IMG/VR virus record: IMGVR_UViG_3300031772_000299
Span: 1-23,123 of that record
DNA: 23,123 nucleotides
Reading direction: 5' to 3' (one strand)
From: a virus
The notes beneath the pieces were generated by a model. That model did not search any database. It was not told the DNA's origin and saw nothing but the letters and a program-made list of their open reading frames with translations. The translations under genes and the position numbers were made by a program. Positions 2,969 to 23,123 of the stretch are shown one piece after another. Positions within the stretch are counted from its first letter, which is position 1. Every line of letters starts with the position of its first letter.

Positions 2969-4789
2969 ATGAAAATTTCGAGTGCATCAAGTATCGGCGA
3001 GACAGAAGAGCACGTTCGTTCGTTCGTCATTAAGCAGGTAGAGCAAAACGACGTTATGGCTACCAGTAACAAAATTCCTGATGACGACTTCAAGAAAGCC
3101 GATCTCGATAACAAGGTCATTGCGCCGCCGTATGATCCCTTCGCCCTGTCAGTGATAAGCGAATCTAGCGGCATCCTCGGTCAGTGTATCGACGTCATGG
3201 AGGTCAATGTTGACTCGTTTGGGTTCGAATTGCGCCCCTCAGTTGACGACGACACTTTCGAGGAATTGAACAGAGATCCAGCAAAGAAAAAGGAGATAGA
3301 GGAAGAATGGCAGAGAGTCATGAATTTCTTTAAATATTGCAACCGCACGCTGTCGTACACACAGCTACGAAGGCGTTTTAGGCGTGACTATGAGCTTACC
3401 GGAAACGCCTATTTCGAGATCCTCCGGAACCAACTCACGCAGAAAATAACAGGCCTGGAGTGGCTCACGTCTCACACGATGAGGGTGGCGAGAATAGACT
3501 CCAAGTTTACCGACTATATGGCTAGGCGGAAGATCAACGACATCGAGATAGAAGAGACGCCCGACAAAAGAAAGTTTCGGCGATACGTCCAGGTGAAGGA
3601 GCGGCAGCAAAAACCCGTCTGGTTCAAAGAGTTCGGCGATCCTCGTTTGATGGACTCGGAGACAGGCGGTAGAGCAGTCGTGATAAGAAATTCTGAAGGA
3701 AGGGTGACGAGTATCTCACCAGAGGTAGATTCGGTTCATGTTTTCGAGGTCGATAAGTTTGAGGCGGGCAACATGAGGCTCGCCACAGAGGTTTTGCATT
3801 TCGTCAACTATCAGGCCTCAAGGACCCTTCCCTACGGGTCGCCCCGGTGGATTGGAAACCTCATATCGGTAATGGGTAGCCGACAGAGTGAGGAAGTGAA
3901 CCTCCTTTACTTCAACAACAAGACCGTGCCTCCAGGGATGCTCCTAGTAAGCGGCGGGAAGTTAGCCTCTTCAACAGTCGACCGGATCACTAATCACATC
4001 AAAGAGAACATCAAGGGAAGTAAGAACTACCATTCGATCCTTGTGGTCGAGGCTAATTCAGGCGCTCCAAACCCGAACCTACCAGCCCCGCCTCATCCCC
4101 AGCTTCAATGGGTATCCATGATCGACGCCCAACACGGGGACGCTCTTTTCCAGAACTACGATCAAAACAATATAGACAAAGTTATCAGTAGTTTCCGGTT
4201 TTGGAGTGGGTACGTCTCACGAACCCGAGAGATCAACGTAGCTACAGCGGAGGTCGCTCGCCAAATCAGCGAGGAACAAGTGTTTCAGCCTGAACGTGAC
4301 GAGTTCGATTCGATCATTAATAGGACGCTGTTGGTCGAGATGGGGATCAATTTCTGGGAGCACCGGACCAAGGGGCCTCAACTTTCTTCGCCCAAGGCTA
4401 TGGCTGATATCCTGGATAAGATGAAACCTTACCTTACGGGCATAGAGGGCCGGGAAATCGCCAAACTTATTTTTGGCAGAGAGTTTAAGGATCTGAAAGA
4501 CGAATGGGTCCAGAAGCCCCTTACCTTGGTCATCGCGGAGTTGGTCAAAGGTGCTCAGGCCGCAAACGACGCTATCGCCTCGATGCGGTCAGGGAAAATT
4601 CCAGCTTCGGGTCAGGGTGGGGTGAAAGATCCAGCATCTCAACAGGCCGAAGAGCTCAAGAAAATGGCTGAGCTACCGAACGATGAACAGGCGGTCCTCG
4701 AGTTCGTGACCAAACTGATTACAGTCCGAGAGGCCCTGTCCAAGGCCGAAGTAGTCCTCTCGGAGAACGCTATGAGAGGGCCGATATGA
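2969..4789 (+). CDS. Portal protein (PBSX/XkdE-like)
   Basis: The portal forms the dodecameric ring at one capsid vertex through which DNA enters and the tail attaches. With the start at 2969 the protein has 606 residues. AGGAGG at 2952-2957 supports this ATG over the in-frame TTG at 2939, whose AGGAG sits only one base upstream. Family signs include PYDPFALSVISESSGILGQC near residue 54 and YELTGNAYFEILRN near 141. Further on are LEWLTSHTMRV and a central HFVNYQ...YGSPRW stretch near 280-300. All are typical of PBSX-type portals. The C-terminal part (about 530-606) is helical and Ala/Gln-rich, fitting the internal barrel or crown. It follows the terminase by 33 bases and shares an ATGA junction with the minor head protein, the classical terminase-portal-minor head order. 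Confidence 0.9.
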   Translation: MKISSASSIGETEEHVRSFVIKQVEQNDVMATSNKIPDDDFKKADLDNKVIAPPYDPFALSVISESSGILGQCIDVMEVNVDSFGFELRPSVDDDTFEELNRDPAKKKEIEEEWQRVMNFFKYCNRTLSYTQLRRRFRRDYELTGNAYFEILRNQLTQKITGLEWLTSHTMRVARIDSKFTDYMARRKINDIEIEETPDKRKFRRYVQVKERQQKPVWFKEFGDPRLMDSETGGRAVVIRNSEGRVTSISPEVDSVHVFEVDKFEAGNMRLATEVLHFVNYQASRTLPYGSPRWIGNLISVMGSRQSEEVNLLYFNNKTVPPGMLLVSGGKLASSTVDRITNHIKENIKGSKNYHSILVVEANSGAPNPNLPAPPHPQLQWVSMIDAQHGDALFQNYDQNNIDKVISSFRFWSGYVSRTREINVATAEVARQISEEQVFQPERDEFDSIINRTLLVEMGINFWEHRTKGPQLSSPKAMADILDKMKPYLTGIEGREIAKLIFGREFKDLKDEWVQKPLTLVIAELVKGAQAANDAIASMRSGKIPASGQGGVKDPASQQAEELKKMAELPNDEQAVLEFVTKLITVREALSKAEVVLSENAMRGPI

Positions 4790-7983: not shown

Positions 7984-8982
7984 ATGATCCCGAATCGCAC
8001 GCTTCTTGAAAAGGCCGACCTCGCAGTAGGTGATTTAGTGACCGATGGTGGCTATTTGCTACCCGCCCAGGCAGTCCGGTTCCTTCGGGTTCTGATTGAT
8101 GAGCCTACCCTCATCAAGCAAGCTCGAGTCGTCCCAATGCGGGCTCCAAAGCAAATGATCGAAAAGATCCGCTTCGGAAGCCGTATCCTCCGCCCAGGCA
8201 CCTCCGGTTCTGCTCTGTCCGGCGGCGATCGTGTTAAGCCGGATCTCGGTTCGGTGGAGCTCGACGCCGAGTTGTTCAAGGCTGAAGTCCGGTTGAACGA
8301 CGAGACTCTCGAAGACTCGATCGAACGTGGCGACCTTAAGGAAACAATCCTTGAGCTGATGGCGCAAAGGGTTGCTCTCGATATGGAAGAAGTGATCGTC
8401 CGAGGCGATACCGCTTCCGGTGATTCGTTCCTTGCGACCTTCGACGGTTTGCTAAAGCAAGCTGACGCGAACGTGGTCGACCATTCGACTGATCCTATCG
8501 ACACAAAGACCACCAAGGGCCTGTTCTACAAGCTCTTGAAGGTGATGCCGACCGAGTTCAAGCGCGACAAGCGTTCCTTGATCCACTATGTCAGCACAAA
8601 CATGGAAATCGACTACCGCGAGACTCTGTCTCAGCGTGCGACAGCTATGGGTGACAAGTACGTCTCGGATGACGCTCCTGCCACCACAGCAGGCGTGCCC
8701 ATTCAGGATTTGCCAACAATGCCAGACGGACAGGCGCTGTTGACCAACCCCCTGAATATCAACGTAGGCGTATGGCGGAAGATCAAGGTCGAGACAGACA
8801 AAGACGTGTCTGCGGGCCAGTTCATCACCGTATTGACTGTTCGTTTCCATTCTCGATTTAGCGTGAAGGAAGCGGTCGTCAAGGCTACCGGAGTTACAGT
8901 TCCAGTTGCATCCAATACCAGCGTCGGCCTCTCGGCGGGTGGACTTGGTGGACGCATTGGTCCTTTCACTTTCACAGTTTAA
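7984..8982 (+). CDS. Major capsid protein, HK97 fold
   Basis: A 332-residue capsid subunit with AAAGGAG at 7969-7975, eight bases before the ATG, consistent with high expression. It begins directly in the mature-type segment (TDGGYLLPAQAVRFLRVLID) and has no long N-terminal delta domain, which fits the presence of a separate scaffold gene. Later features typical of HK97-fold capsids include a long spine helix (LKETILELMAQRVALDMEEV, about 119-138). They also include a P-domain with the TMPDGQALLTNPLNINVGVW stretch, and a late strand, QFITVLTVRFHSRFSVKEAV, near the end. The length matches the smaller HK97-like capsids. It stands about 65 bases after the scaffold gene and is followed by a GC-rich hairpin. 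Codon use looks more GC-rich than in the genes after it. Confidence 0.9.
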   Translation: MIPNRTLLEKADLAVGDLVTDGGYLLPAQAVRFLRVLIDEPTLIKQARVVPMRAPKQMIEKIRFGSRILRPGTSGSALSGGDRVKPDLGSVELDAELFKAEVRLNDETLEDSIERGDLKETILELMAQRVALDMEEVIVRGDTASGDSFLATFDGLLKQADANVVDHSTDPIDTKTTKGLFYKLLKVMPTEFKRDKRSLIHYVSTNMEIDYRETLSQRATAMGDKYVSDDAPATTAGVPIQDLPTMPDGQALLTNPLNINVGVWRKIKVETDKDVSAGQFITVLTVRFHSRFSVKEAVVKATGVTVPVASNTSVGLSAGGLGGRIGPFTFTV

Positions 8983-10772: not shown

Positions 10773-13700
10773 GTGGGAAGATTAGCAGAGGTAAATCAGA
10801 CTTTAGCTATCGGCTTAAAGCTGTTCGATGGAGCTACTAATCAATTCCCTAGAGTCAGGGTGTACAACAGTGCTGGAACGGAGCAGACAGCAGCTCCTTT
10901 CAGCAGTCCTATTGCGCTGACACACAGGGCAGTTGGATTTTATAGCGCAACCGTGACGCCTACTGCTGAAGGCGAGTTTTTCATAGTCTATCAGGTGTAC
11001 TCCGACGCTGGGTTCACGACGCTAAATAAGAAGTACGAAGAGGTGATTGACGTTGCTGCTATCAGGTCTGTAGACCAGGATTTGAGTACCCTGCTTACCA
11101 GAGTAGGCACGCCAGTAGGAACAGTATCCAGCGATATCGCAGGTATACAGACAAAGCTCGGTACACCAGCAGGGGCTAGCGTTTCGGTGGATATTCTGTC
11201 TAATTTCACAAGACTTGGCGCACCAGTCGGTGCTTCCATCTCCGCAGACCTTGCGGCTGTAAAAGCGGATACCGGATCAATCAAGACGACGGTCGATACG
11301 AACCTGAATGCGACCGTTAGTTCTAGGCTCGCAACAGCCTCCTATACTGCACCCGATAACGCCACTATAGGCACTATCAACACGAAGATCGGCACGCCTT
11401 TAGGCACCGTATCGACCGATATCGCAGGCGTTCAAACCAAGCTCGGCACTCCAGCCGGGGCTAGTGTTTCGGTAGACGTTGCTGCAGTCAAGGCGGATAC
11501 TGGATCTATCAAGACGACGGTTGATACGAACCTGAACGCGACCGTTAGTTCTAGGCTCCCAACTTCCGGATACACAGCACCCGACAACGCCACCATTGGG
11601 ACAATCAACACGAAGATTGGCACACCAGCCGGTGCCAGCGTTTCGGCAGACGTTGCTGCAGTGAAGGTCGATACGGCAGCGATTCTTGTCGATACAGGAA
11701 CTAGCGGCGTTGTAGTTGCTACAGCCGACCAGGACGCAATAGTGGATAAGGTTTGGGATGAGCTAGCAGGCTCCCATGTCGCGGTCGGATCATTAGGGGC
11801 TAACCTCGACGCAAAGGTATCGACTAGAGCGACTCAGACCAGTGTTGACGCGATTCAAAACAATACAAATTTCGTTGGGGTGGTCCAGAGTCCACTGATC
11901 AAGCCCGCGTCTGGGAGTGTGAACTACAAGTTCTACGGACGCCTGTTCGATTCTGCTGGAAGCCCAGAAGATCCAGATACGAATTTAATGAACATTCGAA
12001 TCGAGACAGTAGGTGGTTCGGTCGTCGTTGCTACAGCAGCTATGACGAGAACGGGGGTAGGGCAATACGAGTATTTGTATTCAGTATTGGCAGCGGACGC
12101 AGAACGTCCTCTCGTAGTGTTCATGGAGTACGCAGAATCTGCGATAGCATTCCAGCATATTAGAACCACAGAGGTTCAGGAATTCGAGACGACTCTGGAC
12201 GCTATCAAGTTGGACACGACAGCGATCAAAGCTAAGACCGACCAGCTCGCATTCACTGCGACTCGAGTAAATTCAGTGATTTCCACTACCCAGGAAGACG
12301 ATATCGTAGATAAGGTCTGGGACGAGCTTCAGGCGGATCACGTCGACGTTGGCTCGCTTGGAGCGAGACTCGACGCAACCGTTTCCAGTAGAGAGTCTGA
12401 CGTCGCAGCAGGGGCGAGGAATACTGCCACTCTTACAGCTATAGGAGGCGTTGGGACCACCGCTAGCGTCATAAACGCAAAGATAGGCGTTCCTGTCGTC
12501 AGCGTTTCCGCCGACATTGCCGCAGTCAAAGCGGTAGTTGATGGAATTAGCATGGGCACGACCCCTCAAGTCATTGCAAACGCGGTTTGGGACGAACTTG
12601 CTTCAGCCCACACTGTTTTAGGCAGCTTCGGAAGGGGGCTAGCCATTCTCTTTGGTGACGCTTCCACGTTGAACGCAGTCGATATCGCTATAGAGGTCTG
12701 GAATTCGGCGGTTGCGTCATTTGGAGCAGGCGGCACCTTTGGGGAGAGAATTACCAACATCAAGAATCGCCTCGATATCGTGGACGGCAAAACGGATCTT
12801 TTGCTTAACGAAAGGCTCCCACTGGCTCGGGCAGAGAGGATCGACCATCTCGACGCCAATATCTCAAGCCTCGAGACGGAGGCCTCAGCTAGCAGCCGAG
12901 CGGCAACCGATCAAGCTGAGCACGATATTACGCAGGCCGCACTCGATGCAGTGCTCCTAGTAATCGGCACACCGTTCCCAGAATTGAGTCAGATCATAGC
13001 TTTGCTTGAGAACGTAACTTACGGATTGGCAAACCTTCGGATCCAGCTAGACGGGAAAGCATCCCTGGCTGGTCAGGTAGGGCAAACCGCACAGCTTACA
13101 AGTATCCAGGACGCCCTCGCCAACGCAACGACAGGGTTGGCCGCCCTCCTAGCCGCAATCGTCAATCAGACTGCTCCATTGACCGACGTTACGTTTGGTT
13201 TGGCAGCTATCAAGTCAGAGCTGAATCTGAAGTCGACGACAGCCCAGGTAGGGACCATCCCGACTTCGTCTCAAATTCGAGACGCCGTGTGGAACCAAGC
13301 GACAGCAGCATTGACCATTATTGGGTCGATCGGGAAACTGATTGCCGACAACCTGAACGATACTATCAGCTCTCGGTCTAGTTCCGCCCAAGCAGTAGCA
13401 ATTGCGGCGCAGTTAACTAGCGTCCTAACAAGGCTCGACAACGCCACCTACGGCCTAGCAGCCTTGCAGGTTGAACACGACAACACCCAGGCATCATTGG
13501 GTGTCGTAGATCTTGCAGTTGCGAACGTAGACACAGATTTAGCCACCGCTAGGGCAGATATTTTGGCAGCGATTTCGGCTCTAGTTAATGGTACGCCAAC
13601 GATCATCGCAGCATTGGATGTCATCAAAGGAGGTGGCTTCGTCGCAGGGGACGATCTGCATTCCATTCGTCTTGCAATAGGAACGGGCTCCGCAACTCTT

Positions 13701-14522
13701 GCCAAGCAGGACGACATTCTCGCAGAGTTGGCTGATATCAAAGGCGGGGGGTTCAACGTCCTCACAGATTCACTTGAAAAAATCCGAGACGAGTCGACAG
13801 TCATTGAGGCCCAGTTAGCTCAGGCCCGACTTAGCATAGAAACGAAAGTCGACGTTGTTGATGATAAGGTCGACGCCGTGGACTCGAAAGCTACTGGAAT
13901 TGATAATAAGCTGACGAACATCACCTACGGCTTGCCAGCAATAAAATCAGCAGTCGATTCAGGCTTTTCTTCGAATAGCATGGGGATAGCAATCATTTCT
14001 GGTCAGGTGTCAGCGGTGAACGGGCTGATTGTAAGCCTTAGCGCCCAGCTCTCGCTTGCAGAGGCGGGTATCCTTTCAGAAATCCAATCCCAGGACACAG
14101 CAGCTATCCAGGTAACTGTTAATGGAATAGTCAGTCTCTTGCAAAACGCAACGTATGGACTTTCTGCTATCAGGACAGCTCTGGATTCGTTCAGGACAGC
14201 CGAACAGATCGACGATGCTTCCAAGGATACTCTGCTCAATTCAATCGTCTCCAGTATCAGTACAGTGGTCCTGGCATTGGACGCCATTAAAGGCGTAGGT
14301 TTCAGTGCAGGAGATTCACTAGCACAGGCTTCGATTAAGTTAGCTAGCATTTTGGCGGAGTTTCCGTTGCTTGCGACGAGCGTCCAAGGGGCCGCGATCA
14401 TTTTGCGGCTTCATGAGCTAGCCGATGGGAATACAGGTTCGTTCGATCCGGATACTGACTCTCTCGCTGCTATCGGAGAGAAGCAGGGCTTTATCGAGGG
14501 TTTTGAAGCCGGGGGGGCTTAA
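10773..14522 (+). CDS. Giant modular repeat protein, probable virion fibre
   Basis: A 1249-residue protein starting at a GTG (10773) with AAGGGG at 10761-10766. Residues 1-95 form a beta domain. Residues about 121-291 carry repeats of the type LGTPAGASVSVDIA in a strict 19-residue register. Residues 378-465 form a second beta domain. Five VWDE-type repeats follow one pattern (e.g. VDKVWDELAGSHVAVGSLG at 324, again at 512, 602, 639, 836). Six repeats of the type LDNATYGLAAL lie at 744, 782, 803, 888, 1047 and 1123, and three IKGGGF motifs lie at 951, 989 and 1172. The whole is rich in Ala, Ile, Val, Asp and Thr with few Cys. Such Ala/Val-rich register repeats suggest a long trimeric rod or coiled fibre. 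It lies between capsid and connector, so a head or neck fibre is more likely than a distal tail fibre. It is not the tape measure, which is at 21339. Confidence 0.7.
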   Translation: MGRLAEVNQTLAIGLKLFDGATNQFPRVRVYNSAGTEQTAAPFSSPIALTHRAVGFYSATVTPTAEGEFFIVYQVYSDAGFTTLNKKYEEVIDVAAIRSVDQDLSTLLTRVGTPVGTVSSDIAGIQTKLGTPAGASVSVDILSNFTRLGAPVGASISADLAAVKADTGSIKTTVDTNLNATVSSRLATASYTAPDNATIGTINTKIGTPLGTVSTDIAGVQTKLGTPAGASVSVDVAAVKADTGSIKTTVDTNLNATVSSRLPTSGYTAPDNATIGTINTKIGTPAGASVSADVAAVKVDTAAILVDTGTSGVVVATADQDAIVDKVWDELAGSHVAVGSLGANLDAKVSTRATQTSVDAIQNNTNFVGVVQSPLIKPASGSVNYKFYGRLFDSAGSPEDPDTNLMNIRIETVGGSVVVATAAMTRTGVGQYEYLYSVLAADAERPLVVFMEYAESAIAFQHIRTTEVQEFETTLDAIKLDTTAIKAKTDQLAFTATRVNSVISTTQEDDIVDKVWDELQADHVDVGSLGARLDATVSSRESDVAAGARNTATLTAIGGVGTTASVINAKIGVPVVSVSADIAAVKAVVDGISMGTTPQVIANAVWDELASAHTVLGSFGRGLAILFGDASTLNAVDIAIEVWNSAVASFGAGGTFGERITNIKNRLDIVDGKTDLLLNERLPLARAERIDHLDANISSLETEASASSRAATDQAEHDITQAALDAVLLVIGTPFPELSQIIALLENVTYGLANLRIQLDGKASLAGQVGQTAQLTSIQDALANATTGLAALLAAIVNQTAPLTDVTFGLAAIKSELNLKSTTAQVGTIPTSSQIRDAVWNQATAALTIIGSIGKLIADNLNDTISSRSSSAQAVAIAAQLTSVLTRLDNATYGLAALQVEHDNTQASLGVVDLAVANVDTDLATARADILAAISALVNGTPTIIAALDVIKGGGFVAGDDLHSIRLAIGTGSATLAKQDDILAELADIKGGGFNVLTDSLEKIRDESTVIEAQLAQARLSIETKVDVVDDKVDAVDSKATGIDNKLTNITYGLPAIKSAVDSGFSSNSMGIAIISGQVSAVNGLIVSLSAQLSLAEAGILSEIQSQDTAAIQVTVNGIVSLLQNATYGLSAIRTALDSFRTAEQIDDASKDTLLNSIVSSISTVVLALDAIKGVGFSAGDSLAQASIKLASILAEFPLLATSVQGAAIILRLHELADGNTGSFDPDTDSLAAIGEKQGFIEGFEAGGA
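11259..11624 (+). repeat. Direct DNA repeat inside the giant protein gene
   Basis: Two copies (11259-11396 and 11487-11624), offset by 228 bases, encode residues 163-208 and 239-284. Within about 50 bases around the shared ACGAACCTGAA the copies differ at only a few positions. The near-identity at synonymous sites shows a recent duplication, or recombination that homogenised the copies, and not merely protein-level constraint. Confidence 0.85.
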
Positions 14523-17536: not shown

Positions 17537-19777
17537 ATGGAAGACTTAGCCCCAAGAATTAGGACCGGAGAAACGCCGCCAAAAGTTCAGAATATCCAAG
17601 GAGCGCCTACGTCTACGTTTGCTATGCTCGGGATATTTCAGAAGGGACCGATCGGGGTTCCTACCTTCACAGCAGGGCCTGAAGACGTCCGAAAGATATT
17701 CGGCGGGCCAATCGCAGGAGGGTTAGGCCAAAAGGGGCTTGCCCTAGCCTATTCCAACGGTGCCGGTGCCGGTTACGTGACTCGAGTCGTGCATTATACC
17801 GATCCTTCGGATCTAAGCACCTCGACCGCCATTGCCTCGTTCAAGGCGATTGACGATCGAATTCCAAACGCAGGTGTCGCTGCATCCGGATCGGTAAAAG
17901 TCGCCAACAATGCGATAGAGGAATGGGAATACGCTGTTGCGTCTTTCGACGTTATCAACAACGCCATTGACGCTGGCGATAAGTTGACAATCAACGGCGA
18001 GGACTTCCAGGAAACTGTAGACTTCGTAGTCGGAGGCACAGCAGCTCTCACCGCTACTGCAATCATGACCGCGATTAACGCAAGTATCGCTCCTGCGATT
18101 TCAGGGGTATTGACCGCCTCGATCAATATCAGCAATCCCATTAGAGTCTTGCTCACCGCAGTAGTCCCAGGGACGGCTGGCAACGCTCTGACGCTTGTCG
18201 AAGTCGATGGGGCCACTAACAACTTCACAATTTCCGGGGCCACGTTCTCGGGAGGGGCGAACGGTGATTCTCTTACAGTTGGCGCGATTACGCTCCAATT
18301 TGGAATAGATATCGCCCTTGGGGTGACTTCGATCCTCACTGCCTTAGCAATTCAGGTCGCGGTCAACGCACTCGTTGCAGTTAGCGCAGCTATCGACCCG
18401 ACAGATACGACCCGAGTTCTCGTTACTGCTGCCGCAGTGGGGACAGCAGGTAACTCGATTGCTTTGACTAAGGTTGATGCCGACAACGATTTGACCTTGT
18501 CAGGAGCCACCCTTACTGGAGGATCGGATCCAGAATCAGAAATCGCTACGACAGTCACAGCCAGCGACGGCCCAGGAACCCATGCAAACGGTCGGATCAT
18601 CAGAATCAGCGCAGCCAAGAACGCTCTTGCGTCATGGTTCCGTCTCGACGTTCTGTCATCGGCTGGCGTTGTTCAGGACAGTTTCGACAACCTGAACCTC
18701 AATCCAGCCAGCTCGGACTACGCCGAGCTCCGAATCAACGGTAGGCAGAACAAGCTGATTACGTTCGTAGACGAAGAATCAACGAACACCTTGGGCAATA
18801 ACAACCTTCCTGCTCTAGGGGATCACCTATTGGCGGGTGGAAACGACGGGCTGGTTGGCATCACCGATCAAGACTTCATCGGAGACTCAGGCACCAAGAC
18901 TGGGATCTACGCTTGGAAGAACCTTGAGGCACGCTTCGCATTGGCTTGCTGTTGGGAACGCCCAACGCTTGCCGTCCAGCAGGCGGGTCGACAGTTTGCA
19001 GAGCTGCAAAAGCATTTCGCTTGGATTGAGGATACTCCAGCAGGCCAAACCGCTGCACAGGTTGTAGCTTACAAGTCGGCAAACGGTATTAGTTCAGAGT
19101 TCTCTGCACTCTACTGGCCGCTTGTAGTCATCAGCGATATGACTCCTGGCATCTCGTTCGGATCTGACTTGGTCATAGGAAACTCGCCAGTCGTTCTTGG
19201 TCGATGCGCCGCCACCGACAACGCTGTCGGCAAAGGGGTAGCTAAGGCCCCAGCCGGTATCGTAGACGGAGCTATCAAGGGTATCGTGCGCCTAGAAACG
19301 GATGTTACTCAGGATCAAGCCGTACGCGATTTGCTGTTTCCAGACGGGATTAATCCTCTTTGGAGCGAACAGGGTGTTGGGCCGTTTATCGACGGAGCTC
19401 GACTCACGAAGTTGGACGGACTTGTTTCCAACTTCAACGAAAGAAGGGTGTTTATATTCGTAGAGGTTTCGATAGCCCAAGGTATTCGATATGCCAAGCA
19501 TGAGAATATTGAGGAGAAGCTATACAATAGCCTCAACGCAACCGTTACCGTGTTCCTTACTCGGTTCTGGCGTCAGGGCGGTCTGCGAGGCGCAATCCCA
19601 CAGGAGGCGTTCTACGTAGACTTCACATTCGGGTCGGGGACGATAAATCCTCCAAGCGAAGCAGAAGCGAGTCGGGTAAACGGAGAGATTGGTATCGCTA
19701 CCAAGAAGCCCGGATACTTCTTTACGATCAGCTTCACTGTTGATCAGAGGGCCTTACTGGCAGAGTTAGCCGGTTAA
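17537..19777 (+). CDS. Contractile tail sheath protein with inserted repeat domain
   Basis: A 746-residue sheath protein that polymerises around the tail tube and contracts on infection. N-terminal sheath features appear at residues 25-85 (TSTFAMLGIFQKGPIGVPTF, then a GYVTRVV strand). The C-terminal half shows the usual sheath core, with helices around 470-500 and 590-660 and a final domain ending KKPGYFFTISFTVDQRALLA. Residues about 147-330 are an insertion not expected in the minimal sheath. It consists of two related domains of about 90 residues (see separate entry). The protein is longer than many sheaths, which fits the insertion. Only a distant ribosome site (AAGGAG, 12 bases upstream) precedes the ATG. 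Sheath presence identifies the phage as a myovirus. Confidence 0.9.
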   Translation: MEDLAPRIRTGETPPKVQNIQGAPTSTFAMLGIFQKGPIGVPTFTAGPEDVRKIFGGPIAGGLGQKGLALAYSNGAGAGYVTRVVHYTDPSDLSTSTAIASFKAIDDRIPNAGVAASGSVKVANNAIEEWEYAVASFDVINNAIDAGDKLTINGEDFQETVDFVVGGTAALTATAIMTAINASIAPAISGVLTASINISNPIRVLLTAVVPGTAGNALTLVEVDGATNNFTISGATFSGGANGDSLTVGAITLQFGIDIALGVTSILTALAIQVAVNALVAVSAAIDPTDTTRVLVTAAAVGTAGNSIALTKVDADNDLTLSGATLTGGSDPESEIATTVTASDGPGTHANGRIIRISAAKNALASWFRLDVLSSAGVVQDSFDNLNLNPASSDYAELRINGRQNKLITFVDEESTNTLGNNNLPALGDHLLAGGNDGLVGITDQDFIGDSGTKTGIYAWKNLEARFALACCWERPTLAVQQAGRQFAELQKHFAWIEDTPAGQTAAQVVAYKSANGISSEFSALYWPLVVISDMTPGISFGSDLVIGNSPVVLGRCAATDNAVGKGVAKAPAGIVDGAIKGIVRLETDVTQDQAVRDLLFPDGINPLWSEQGVGPFIDGARLTKLDGLVSNFNERRVFIFVEVSIAQGIRYAKHENIEEKLYNSLNATVTVFLTRFWRQGGLRGAIPQEAFYVDFTFGSGTINPPSEAEASRVNGEIGIATKKPGYFFTISFTVDQRALLAELAG
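17975..18523 (+). repeat. Tandem duplicated domain within the sheath gene
   Basis: Sheath residues 147-240 (GDKLTINGEDFQETVDFVVG to TFSGG) and 243-329 (GDSLTVGAITLQFGIDIALG to TLTGG) have the same layout. Both contain a GDxLT start and a helix with AI, the motif RVLLTAVVPGTAGNALTLV versus RVLVTAAAVGTAGNSIALT, and an SGAT[FL]xGG end. They are two copies of one beta-rich domain, probably on the outer face of the contractile tail. Confidence 0.8.
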
Positions 19778-19833: not shown

Positions 19834-20298
19834 ATGCCAGTACAAGGATCGCCAAAAGACTTTCTGAAGCGTTACAAATTCATAATCGAATGCGACCGGC
19901 TCGGCGACACAGCATTCCAAAAGTGCAGTGAGATTGAATCGGATATCGAAGTCAACGAATACGCTGAAGGCGGCGCTATTTTCAACGAGAAAGACGCGGG
20001 AAGAGTAACCTTTACCAACGTCACTCTCGAGCGTGGCCAGACAAGCGACGACAACGATATGGAGTCGTGGCATCTTGAGGCCGCTGCCGCAGGAGACGAC
20101 GTTGGAGGTGTTGGCGATAGTTACAAGACTAATGCTGATATCGTTAACCAGAAGCGAGACGGTACCACTGCTCGTCGATATCGGATGTTTAATGCTTGGC
20201 CAAAGCGAGTTAAGGTAGGTCCTTGGGACAACACCAGTTCCGAGCATACCTTTAGCGAAGCCGAGATCGTATTCAACTACAGTATTCGAGTCCCGTGA
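19834..20298 (+). CDS. Tail tube protein (T4 gp19-like)
   Basis: A 154-residue protein with GGAGGAG at 19821-19827, six bases before the ATG, one of the strongest ribosome sites in the window, as expected for an abundant subunit. The pattern is a T4 gp19-type tube (PF06841): SPKDFLKRYKFIIECDRLGD start, AFQKCSEIESDIEVNEYAEG, then VTFTNVTLERGQTSD, and a final set of strands (ARRYRMFNAWPKRVKVGPWD, then EAEIVFNYSIRVP). Length is typical. It stacks in hexameric rings to form the inner tail channel inside the sheath encoded just upstream. Confidence 0.9.
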   Translation: MPVQGSPKDFLKRYKFIIECDRLGDTAFQKCSEIESDIEVNEYAEGGAIFNEKDAGRVTFTNVTLERGQTSDDNDMESWHLEAAAAGDDVGGVGDSYKTNADIVNQKRDGTTARRYRMFNAWPKRVKVGPWDNTSSEHTFSEAEIVFNYSIRVP

Positions 20299-20439: not shown

Positions 20440-21177
20440 ATGGAAATACACCTTCCCGGCCTGGACCAGATCGTCAACGTACGCCCGCTCAAAGTAAAAG
20501 AAATAAACCTACTTACAGACCGCGCCTCCCTTCAGAACGGGGAAACCGTTAACAGGCTCTTAAAGGATGCTCTAGTTGATTCTTTTATCGACCCCATAAC
20601 CCTATTGGACGGGGACCGAAACGCGATCCTGTTTGGAGTACGCCGCGCTACTTGGTTAGACGACTATGATATCACCGTCTCATGCCCAGCTTGCCGCCAG
20701 AGACAGGACTTTACAGTCGATCTCAGCAATATCCAGGAAAAGTCAGGCGATAGAGATTTGATCAAGAAACGCTACGAGGAACCCAACTTCCTAGCGCCAT
20801 TCCAATTTAAGGGATGTGGGTTGACTGCTTGGTGGCGGTTTACGGACGGGTCCGACTTCAAGAAATTGATTGATATCAATAAGAAAAAATCGAACCAGCT
20901 CGCAAGTGAATCGCTAGCCCTCCGAATCAAAAGGATCGAAGGATCTAAGGAAGGCGTCCCGATAAAGAGGGTTCTTGAGGAGCTCGACGCCTCAGATATG
21001 AGTGATTTCAACGAATATTACGACGAATGCGCCCCCGGTCACGACACTAAGGTCGATCTTATCTGTACGAATGGCCTTTGCGGCGCTGAGTTTACTGTCG
21101 ATATGCCGATTGAACCTGAAAATTTTTTCAAGCGCAGTGTACGAGGGAGACGCTCCTCGATTGTAAGTTCTACGTAA
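20440..21177 (+). CDS. Tail assembly chaperone (T4 gp26/T4_baseplate-like), zero-frame product
   Basis: A 245-residue protein between tube and tape measure, where the tail assembly chaperone is expected. The start at 20440 has only a weak GGGGTAAAG site. The body resembles T4-type baseplate/chaperone proteins (PF12322 type): IHLPGLDQIVNVRPLKVKEI start, a helix-rich middle, and a zinc-ribbon-like pair of cysteine sites, CPAC at 82-85 and CTNGLC at 209-214, separated by a long insertion. The last conserved part is FTVDMPIEPENFF, ending at residue 230. Directly after it lies a slippery sequence, and the remaining zero-frame tail is only 15 basic residues. A minority of ribosomes should slip to give the extended form (see next entries). 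Such chaperones coat the tape measure during tail assembly. Confidence 0.85.
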   Translation: MEIHLPGLDQIVNVRPLKVKEINLLTDRASLQNGETVNRLLKDALVDSFIDPITLLDGDRNAILFGVRRATWLDDYDITVSCPACRQRQDFTVDLSNIQEKSGDRDLIKKRYEEPNFLAPFQFKGCGLTAWWRFTDGSDFKKLIDINKKKSNQLASESLALRIKRIEGSKEGVPIKRVLEELDASDMSDFNEYYDECAPGHDTKVDLICTNGLCGAEFTVDMPIEPENFFKRSVRGRRSSIVSST

Positions 21178-21338
21178 CTTGCCTGCCCCCGATGGCCACT
21201 GCGCTGAATATAAGTTGGAGTGAGATCGACGATATGATTTGGACTGATTTTGTCCACGTCATGGGAAAGTTAGAGGAAATTAGAGGTCGAGAGGAGTCTG
21301 CTCTCAGGAGTAGCTCAAGTAACGCAAGGAGAGTTTAA
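21114..21338 (+). CDS. Frameshift-encoded C-terminal extension of the tail assembly chaperone
   Basis: This frame has no start with a ribosome site near its beginning. The only ATG (21192) would give 48 residues and has no Shine-Dalgarno. After the -1 slip at 21123-21129 the chaperone would read QAQCTRETLLDCKFYVTCLP and then continue (PMATALNISWSEIDDMIWTD, and a final charged helix with KLEEIRGREE), adding 69 residues for a total near 299. The segment has sensible composition with a WSEIDDMIWTDF motif like those in frameshifted chaperones. It stops at TAA 21336-21338, which is immediately followed by the tape measure ATG in the same frame. No further product is likely from this stretch on its own. 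Confidence 0.75.
21120..21129 (+). promoter_or_regulatory. Programmed -1 ribosomal frameshift slippery site
   Basis: The run AAATTTTTTC holds two overlapping X XXY YYZ heptamers in the zero frame of the chaperone: A AAT TTT (21120-21126) and T TTT TTC (21123-21129). In the -1 frame a stop at 21111-21113 ends just before it, and the frame is open from 21114 to 21338. Downstream, 21142-21149 can pair with 21153-21159 (seven pairs with one bulged G), a possible stimulatory hairpin about 12 bases from the slip site. Slippage gives an extended chaperone, as in other tailed phages just upstream of the tape measure gene. Confidence 0.8.
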
Positions 21339-23123
21339 ATGGGGGTTCTCGATCCGCTTGGGGTTATTTTTCTTGCGAAAGACTTGGCGTCAACGACCAT
21401 CAAGAAACTTGAAGGTAACTTCCTTTCCCTCGACAAAACCGTCCAAGCCAGCTCCAAGAATTTCTCGCAAGGGCTCGTCGTTATGGGGCAGGGGCTAACA
21501 GCTCTTGCCGCAGGGGCTGCAGCCTTAGCTCCTCTAGCTATTGGCATTAAGCTCGCAGGGGATTTCGAAGCAGTCCTACTGAACATAAAGAAAATAGCTG
21601 GAGATTCAGCCGACATACCGGCGCTTAGCGCGGCGTTTATTGCTATGGGGCCTCATTTGGCGATGACTGCGGCCCAGCTTGGCGAGATCGGGGTCGCAGC
21701 AGCCCAGTTAGGTATTTCCTCCACGAAAGATATCACTGCATTCACAGAGGGGGTGGCTATGATGGCTGTCGCCTTGGACGTTACGACTGAAGCTGCAGGA
21801 ACCGCTTCAGCAAAGATGCTCAATATTTTCAAACTGCCTATAGAACAGATTCAAAATCTAGGGTCCGCATTCAACGCGCTCTCCAATACAACAGCAGCGT
21901 CTGCCGCCGATATAGTGAACGCGACTTTTAGGGCATCCAGTACCCTGGCCTCGCTCGGAGCTACCGCACCTCAAGTATCAGCCCTTGCAGCGTCTCTCGT
22001 ATCTCTAGGCGTCCCGGCAGAAATAGCCGGATCCTCGCTACGAAGAATGTTTGAGATGGCGACGACTCAGCCAAAGAAACTGTCCGATGCAATGGGGATA
22101 ACCGTAGACGATCTACAGCAGAGGCTGGGGAAAGACGCCGTGGGAACAATACTCCAGTTCCTCGAAAAGCTCAGAGCAGTACCCAACGCAGCTATTCGGG
22201 TAGGTATGGCAACCAAGATCTTCGGCGAGGAGGGGTCAAAAGCAGCCAATCTCTTGTCCCAGAGTCTCGATCAGACACGAAAGAACATAGCCTTTGCGAC
22301 GGCTGAATTTGAAAAAGGGACGAGTATCATTCAGGAGTTCGAAGCCCAGGCGGTAGGCTTCAATTTCTCAGTCAAGCAAATGAAGAGTGCCTTCGACGCC
22401 CTGTTTGTCACCTTGGGAACAGCAGTGCTCCCGATTCTTACCCCAATCGCAAAAGGGATTGCCAACGTAGTCGCGGCCTTCACGAAGCTAATCGAGCCAG
22501 TAAAAGAGGTCGTTGCGGGGGTTTTAGGGTTCGTAGGCGCGTTTCTAATGGCTACAGGATCACTCATCCTGTTCCGAGGGGCCTTGTTCGCACTCAAAGG
22601 CTTGATGGTTATAGTCGGAGCGACGTTTTCCGGTTTCATAGCTATTTTCGCCCAAGCTGCCTTGGTTGTCGGCGTTTTGATTGCTTCGTTCTATCTGCTG
22701 AAGAGGGCCTTCGAGAGTAACTTTGGTGGGTTCGGAGACTTTCTCCGGGGTGTCTTCGACAAAGTCTCAGCGTTCGTCCAGGCTGTCATCGAGGTGTTTT
22801 CCAGTGGGGAGATATCAGGTGCCTTGTACGAGGAGTTGCAGCGTACCGGAATGCTTGAGTTTACCGAAGCAGTCCTAAGAGGCTTCAGCCGGGTGAAGAC
22901 GTTCCTTAGTGGGATGCTAAACGGTTTTATGGCCGCTTGGGCTTCCGTCGAACCGGTAGCTGTGGCTGCTTTGACGGCAATCATGGAAGTATTCTCTGCG
23001 CTTGGCCAAATAGTTATAGCTTTAGTCAACGGATTCGACAGCCTCTTTGGAGGGGCCGGTAGCCAAATCGCAATCCTTGAGGGTGTTGGAAAAGCTGGCA
23101 AGTCAACAGGGCTCGTTATTGGA
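21339..23123 (+). CDS. Tail tape measure protein, 3' partial
   Basis: The frame runs 595 codons without a stop to the right edge, so the gene continues outside the window. The start at 21339 has AAGGAG at 21326-21331, seven bases upstream, and the ATG touches the previous stop (TAAATG). Residues about 1-60 form a helical lead. Residues 70-400 match the phage tail tape measure pattern (TIGR01760-like), e.g. FEAVLLNIKKIAGDSADIPA, then LGEIGVAAAQLGISS and a second repeated helical part. A strongly hydrophobic block at about 391-450 (start VVAGVLGFVGAFLMATGSLI) is typical of tape measures and may contact the membrane during infection. Length of the complete protein would set the tail length and cannot be read here. 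Confidence 0.9.
   Translation, partial: MGVLDPLGVIFLAKDLASTTIKKLEGNFLSLDKTVQASSKNFSQGLVVMGQGLTALAAGAAALAPLAIGIKLAGDFEAVLLNIKKIAGDSADIPALSAAFIAMGPHLAMTAAQLGEIGVAAAQLGISSTKDITAFTEGVAMMAVALDVTTEAAGTASAKMLNIFKLPIEQIQNLGSAFNALSNTTAASAADIVNATFRASSTLASLGATAPQVSALAASLVSLGVPAEIAGSSLRRMFEMATTQPKKLSDAMGITVDDLQQRLGKDAVGTILQFLEKLRAVPNAAIRVGMATKIFGEEGSKAANLLSQSLDQTRKNIAFATAEFEKGTSIIQEFEAQAVGFNFSVKQMKSAFDALFVTLGTAVLPILTPIAKGIANVVAAFTKLIEPVKEVVAGVLGFVGAFLMATGSLILFRGALFALKGLMVIVGATFSGFIAIFAQAALVVGVLIASFYLLKRAFESNFGGFGDFLRGVFDKVSAFVQAVIEVFSSGEISGALYEELQRTGMLEFTEAVLRGFSRVKTFLSGMLNGFMAAWASVEPVAVAALTAIMEVFSALGQIVIALVNGFDSLFGGAGSQIAILEGVGKAGKSTGLVIG

Follow-up and report, generated by a model that had tools for sequence, protein, structure and literature searches.

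Chaperone gene, slippery site and extension in the window

The window, by which we mean the whole 23.1-kb stretch of DNA analysed here, is a virus record with a myovirus tail module (Table 1). A PF12322 gene lies between its tail tube and tape measure genes, the position expected of a G/GT tail assembly chaperone. The 0-frame protein matched PF12322 with 33.3 bits, against a curated cut-off of 24.5 (Pfam E 5e-8), and also matched phrog_150/9914. Its AF2 model (pLDDT 85) matched gp26 of SP-15 (E 1.5e-15) and gp26 of Aeromonas phage 25 (E 1.3e-6). Neither sequence nor fold comparison found a relative of this chaperone among solved structures, and the lambda/HK97-type chaperone fold was not recovered, the HK97 chaperone 2ob9 matching the short form only at E 6.2.

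Upstream of the tail genes, an ORF of 1249 aa (10773-14522) contains internal repeats of the IGTPLGTVSTDIAGVQTKLGTPAGASVSVDVAAVKADTGSIKTTVDTNLNATVSSRL type. The capsid protein (7984-8982, phrog_1623) shares approximately 40% identity with the capsids of phages such as Agrobacterium JP1 and Stenotrophomonas vB_SmaS_DLP_5; the latter is named as a siphovirus, whereas the tail of the window is contractile, so that the head and tail modules differ in origin.

Table 1. Features of the tail region and the frameshift locus, in window coordinates
Feature	Position	Strand	Basis or remark
Tail sheath protein; contractile tail (myovirus)	17537..19777	+	phrog_17610 and phrog_23 tail sheath
Tail tube protein (T4 gp19 type)	19834..20298	+	PF06841, E 2e-22
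PF12322 gene, 0-frame, 245 aa (T4_baseplate, T4 gp26-type); short chaperone form (G-like)	20440..21177	+	
Slippery run AAATTTTTTC: A_AAT_TTT (21120-21126) and T_TTT_TTC (21123-21129)	21120..21129	+	sequence
-1 frame extension (T-like), 69 aa and TAA, with WSEIDDMIW segment	21129..21338	+	open frame
Predicted RNA structure, candidate stimulator: 9-bp stem 21131-21139/21197-21205	21131..21205	+	
Alternative stand-alone ORF, 48 aa, ATG, same -1 frame (rival reading)	21192..21338	+	without SD-like stretch upstream
Tape measure protein, incomplete at the contig end	21339..23123	+	PF10145, E 1e-27; phrog_28

The first-pass annotation had proposed that a programmed -1 frameshift extends the chaperone, at a run holding two overlapping X_XXY_YYZ heptamers in the chaperone frame. 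Both heptamers are present, as positions 21118-21129 read GAA AAT TTT TTC in that frame. The -1 frame stays open to 21338 as described; its opening, however, is at 21120 rather than 21114, with TGA stops at 21111-21113 and 21117-21119. It ends in a TAA (21336-21338) that directly precedes the tape-measure ATG at 21339, and the fused product has the expected length of about 299 residues (230+69 = 299 aa). A single in-frame heptamer is not rare, since the other genes of the window contain 15. A useful shift is confined to the 19 codons from the opening of the -1 frame to the 0-frame stop, where about 0.04 heptamers are expected by chance and two overlapping ones were found. The genes of the window contain 10 further Phe-Phe pairs, and T_TTT_TTC encodes none of them. 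The 0-frame tail after the site comprises 16 codons, which is longer than in most relatives.

Between 21178 and 21335, the extension frame has the best codon usage of the six frames and no stop. This codon usage falls at the 5th percentile of gene windows, yet above 97% of off-frame windows. The extension by itself had no match in Pfam or PHROGs. We compared it with four extension profiles: cyanophage-only, +1-only, jumbo-only, and a mixed profile built from the extensions of all branches with the window left out. The mixed profile, the sole one to detect it, scored 14.3 bits (best of 500 shuffles, 6.5), and it matched the C-terminus of T4 gp51 with 19.6 bits (best of 500 shuffles, 5.3). T4 gp51 passed the cyanophage-only profile, which the window extension failed. 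Since the branch-only profiles miss it, the homology of the window extension rests on the mixed-profile test together with its position.

Conservation of site and frame, and predicted downstream RNA structure

The search for close relatives with the chaperone, tape measure, tube and sheath proteins yielded a single near-identical contig, whose sequence stops short of the site. Among phage records, tblastn revealed 27 distant relatives, ten of which were opened and examined. All ten carry an out-of-frame extension starting at a conserved Phe-Phe pair, close to the end of the PF12322 gene, or at the matching Phe. The extension is in the -1 frame at T_TTT_TTC in Atu_ph07, Paride, Phosso and Vibrio 2.275, as in the window, and in the +1 frame at UUU_C or UUU_UUU in SP-15, BRock, LuckySocke, GXN1, immuto and LR756508. 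KVP40, which like T4 belongs to the Straboviridae, has one PF12322 gene with the site GAT TTT TTC GTA TAA and a -1 extension, and HTVC008M, Cr30 and phiM12 have a -1 extension at T_TTT_TTT.

Alignment scans of IMG/VR enlarged this set. The extension was in the -1 frame at NNT TTT TTC in all 80 cyanophage-like gp26 loci, and in 56 of 56 distinct loci of the jumbo-phage branch, 55 of which have T_TTT_TTC. In a third branch, all 79 viral loci have the extension in the +1 frame, mostly at UUU_UUU_U sites (TTT TTT TAC, 37; TTT TTT TGG, 37; TTT CTT TGG, 3; TTC TTT, 2). The type of site thus agrees with the frame throughout the family, with -1 extensions at T_TTT_TTC and +1 extensions at UUU_UUU_U or UUU_C. 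Phe-Phe pairs outside the site used T_TTT_TTC in 9/255 and 4/96 cases. The codon that precedes the site in the cyanophage branch encodes Ser, Ala, Asn or Asp, while its third base is always T, a pattern that selection at the protein level does not explain. The homologue checks suggested with the initial proposal thus found T_TTT_TTC conserved in relatives and, in T4 gp51, the extension fused in frame to the PF12322 domain. Of the proposed double slippery site, T_TTT_TTC is the conserved half, whereas the second heptamer, A_AAT_TTT, is not conserved.

Some loci showed individual features. L206, L207 (C-terminal end near 3640-3940) and L227 have a -1 extension of similar type (LTLSEVEDMDL...) and no classic slippery heptamer, and L264, of the jumbo branch, has a -1 extension with no T_TTT_TTC near the stop. 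In the third branch, PF12322 genes with +1 extensions also occur at 14 loci on MAG contigs of bacteria and archaea (L212-L225), which may be prophages or binned free virus.

The structure predicted downstream of the window site consists of a 9-bp stem enclosing three hairpins (21142-21159, 21163-21182 and 21185-21196). Its MFE is -31.5 kcal/mol (z -4.1) and was equalled by 0/200 shuffles; a repeat run gave z -3.8, a value reached by 2/257 windows of the contig. The bulged hairpin noted in the first-pass annotation (approximately 21142-21159) is real, but it forms an inner part of this larger predicted structure and is unremarkable by itself (z near 0 for 56 nt). The stem starts nearer the slip site than usual stimulators do. 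Strong structures 3' of the site were also found in Atu_ph07 (z -6.6), Phosso (-3.9), P-SSM2 (-3.6) and S-PM2 (-4.0). Among 43 cyanophage-like loci, a covarying stem had 92.6% of cells paired, with compensatory changes, and 0/500 shuffles scored as high. Downstream structure in the +1 branch was weak, with a mean z of -0.65 against -0.09 for controls. The cyanophage-like gp26 loci (L107-L186) additionally have an SD-like GAG-GGN approximately 10 nt upstream of the site, which can be likened to the SD-type stimulator of dnaX; GAG was present there in 69/80 loci, compared with about one third elsewhere. The window lacks such a stretch upstream of its site. We regard the structures after the sites as candidate stimulators of frameshifting.

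Probable frameshifting and alternative explanations

Frameshifting is strongly supported by relatives, which keep the site, the frame and the extension, and the profile match of the extension and the strong downstream RNA structure point the same way. A programmed -1 frameshift at T_TTT_TTC in the PF12322 chaperone gene, as predicted from these sequence comparisons, is very probably the correct explanation of the window, in agreement with the original proposal. The gene product would be a T4 gp26-like tail assembly chaperone. The majority of ribosomes would stop at 21177 and release the short, G-like form, while a minority would slip back one base at T_TTT_TTC and continue to 21338, producing the 299-aa, GT-like form at a rate that we infer to be low. 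As tRNA-Phe decodes both TTT and TTC, both tRNAs would be able to re-pair, and the slip may be aided by the RNA structure starting at 21131. If lambda is a guide, the portion shared by both forms would coat the tape measure protein, and the additional C-terminal domain would recruit tail tube subunits.

The extension might instead be a separate small gene of 48 aa, translated from ATG 21192 by termination-reinitiation after the stop at 21177, a reading that we consider unlikely. The first-pass annotation had found no usable start for the extension, which holds with the caveat that this ATG is in frame, only 14 bases downstream of the stop, but has no Shine-Dalgarno-like stretch. For SP-15, BRock, immuto and P-SSM2, the GenBank annotation gives the extension a gene of its own, and an ATG lies 2 nt past the stop in 66/80 cyanophage-like loci. 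However, none of the 80 cyanophage-like ATGs is preceded by an SD-like stretch, nor is ATG 21192, unlike most genes of the window; in 14/80 loci of the cyanophage branch, the first ATG comes later than 2 nt after the stop; and 39/55 extensions of the jumbo branch have no Met within the first 25 residues. The stand-alone start is therefore not a conserved element. A separate gene also leaves unexplained the invariant T_TTT_TTC and its agreement with the frame, and it conflicts with gp51 of T4, RB49 and Acj9, in which PF12322 domain and extension form one protein. Transcriptional slippage, in which RNA polymerase slips on the T6 run so that some mRNAs gain or lose a base, would account for the T runs that almost every relative has at the site, and could serve the -1 and +1 branches alike. 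We think it very unlikely: a run of six T's is short for a polymerase to slip on efficiently, the -1 site ends in C at 80/80 loci, so that the T run is not maximised, and the +1 branch includes TTT_CTT, TTC_TTT and TTT_CGN sites with no long run. The covarying downstream stems moreover fit ribosomal slippage.

An open -1 frame that arose by chance, with the 245-aa protein as the sole product, would be consistent with the weak codon usage and similarity of the extension. It is highly improbable, as the end of the extension abuts the tape-measure start exactly, the mixed-profile score was reached by 0/500 shuffles, and site and architecture are as elsewhere in the family. An assembly error, by which the true gene would be a single in-frame gene of 299 aa comparable to T4 gp51, has some basis in the error-prone nature of homopolymers and in the site being covered by no second contig; nevertheless, more than 200 loci have the same out-of-frame arrangement, and finished reference genomes show it too, which makes this explanation hardly credible.

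Known systems and the direction of the predicted shift

The closest known systems are gp26/gp51 of T4-like phages (Vladimirov, Gautam & Davidson 2022, Virology 566:9-15, cited in PMC10885494 and PMC12846349), which share PF12322 with the window and have a C-terminal extension of apparently the same kind. The window differs in its distance from these phages, as its fused protein scored 85.7 bits with the +1-branch profile against 8.6 with the cyanophage profile, in its own downstream RNA structure and in having no SD-like stretch before the site. Lambda gpG/gpGT and the other phages of Xu et al. 2004 are similar in gene position and in having short and extended forms (PMC5009743), and low-level -1 slippage as in lambda is likewise expected for the window (PMC5009743). 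The lambda shift was measured, while that of the window is predicted from sequence, and a sequence search detected no relatedness between lambda gpG/gpGT and the window chaperone. Haloviruses of the HF1 group have a +1 site, TTT-CGC, before the tape measure (PMC7230728), which is the same gene position and the same UUU_C type of site as in BRock and GXN1 of the +1 branch; they differ from the window in the direction of the shift, and no PF12322 gene was found in them by search. The chaperone gene of Vandenendeviridae and Andersonviridae has a GTTTTT -1 site (PMC12846349), and resembles that of the window in that the 3' end of the short form holds a poly-T -1 site and the extension comes before the tape measure (PMC12846349).

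The suggestion that a chaperone of this type paired with such a slippery site may be an undescribed variant is, for the most part, not supported. Citing Vladimirov et al. 2022, PMC10885494 and PMC12846349 list T4-like gp26/gp51 among the tail assembly chaperones and describe poly-T -1 signals in T4-like TAC genes as known. The kind of frameshift is thus known, and the window is a divergent member; taken alone, it shows what a long-tailed phage would be expected to have, in a lineage remote from those described. Two points may be new here, namely the existence of a +1 branch and a single family in which the direction changes. Our results also suggest that the "baseplate hub" label of gp26/gp51, carried by over a thousand phage records, should often read frameshifted tail assembly chaperone.

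T4 was still described as the exception in a 2016 review (PMC5009743). Two PF12322 genes are present in each of T4, RB49 and Acj9: gp26 has neither site nor extension, and gp51 has the extension in frame. In T4 the two are paralogues, of which gp51 has the fused extension. The arrangement in T4, RB49 and Acj9, compared with the single gene with T_TTT_TTC in KVP40 and the cyanophages, agrees with a statement in PMC10885494 that some T4-like phages have a short gene and a fused long gene in place of the frameshift, and with the older observation that cyanophage gp51 resembles T4 gp51 at the C-terminus only (PMC3037559). Versions of a single chaperone with a -1 site, with a +1 site or with a second gene copy provide a natural set for studying the evolution of frameshift direction and of the ratio of forms.

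A tree of 55 short-form proteins requires at least three changes of frameshift direction, and a switch of direction within the PF12322 chaperone family is likely on this basis. The tree places the window on the +1 side, on a long branch. This placement no more than suggests a switch of direction at the window itself; grouping it with the jumbo -1 branch was not rejected (AU p 0.07), and uniting all -1 rows in one clade was borderline (p 0.041). Tentatively, and at somewhat less than even chances, we propose that one chaperone family shifts -1 at U_UUU_UUC and +1 at UUU_UUU_U or UUU_C, at the same Phe-Phe and into a related extension, that T4 substituted gene duplication, and that the window may be a -1 lineage derived from the +1 side.
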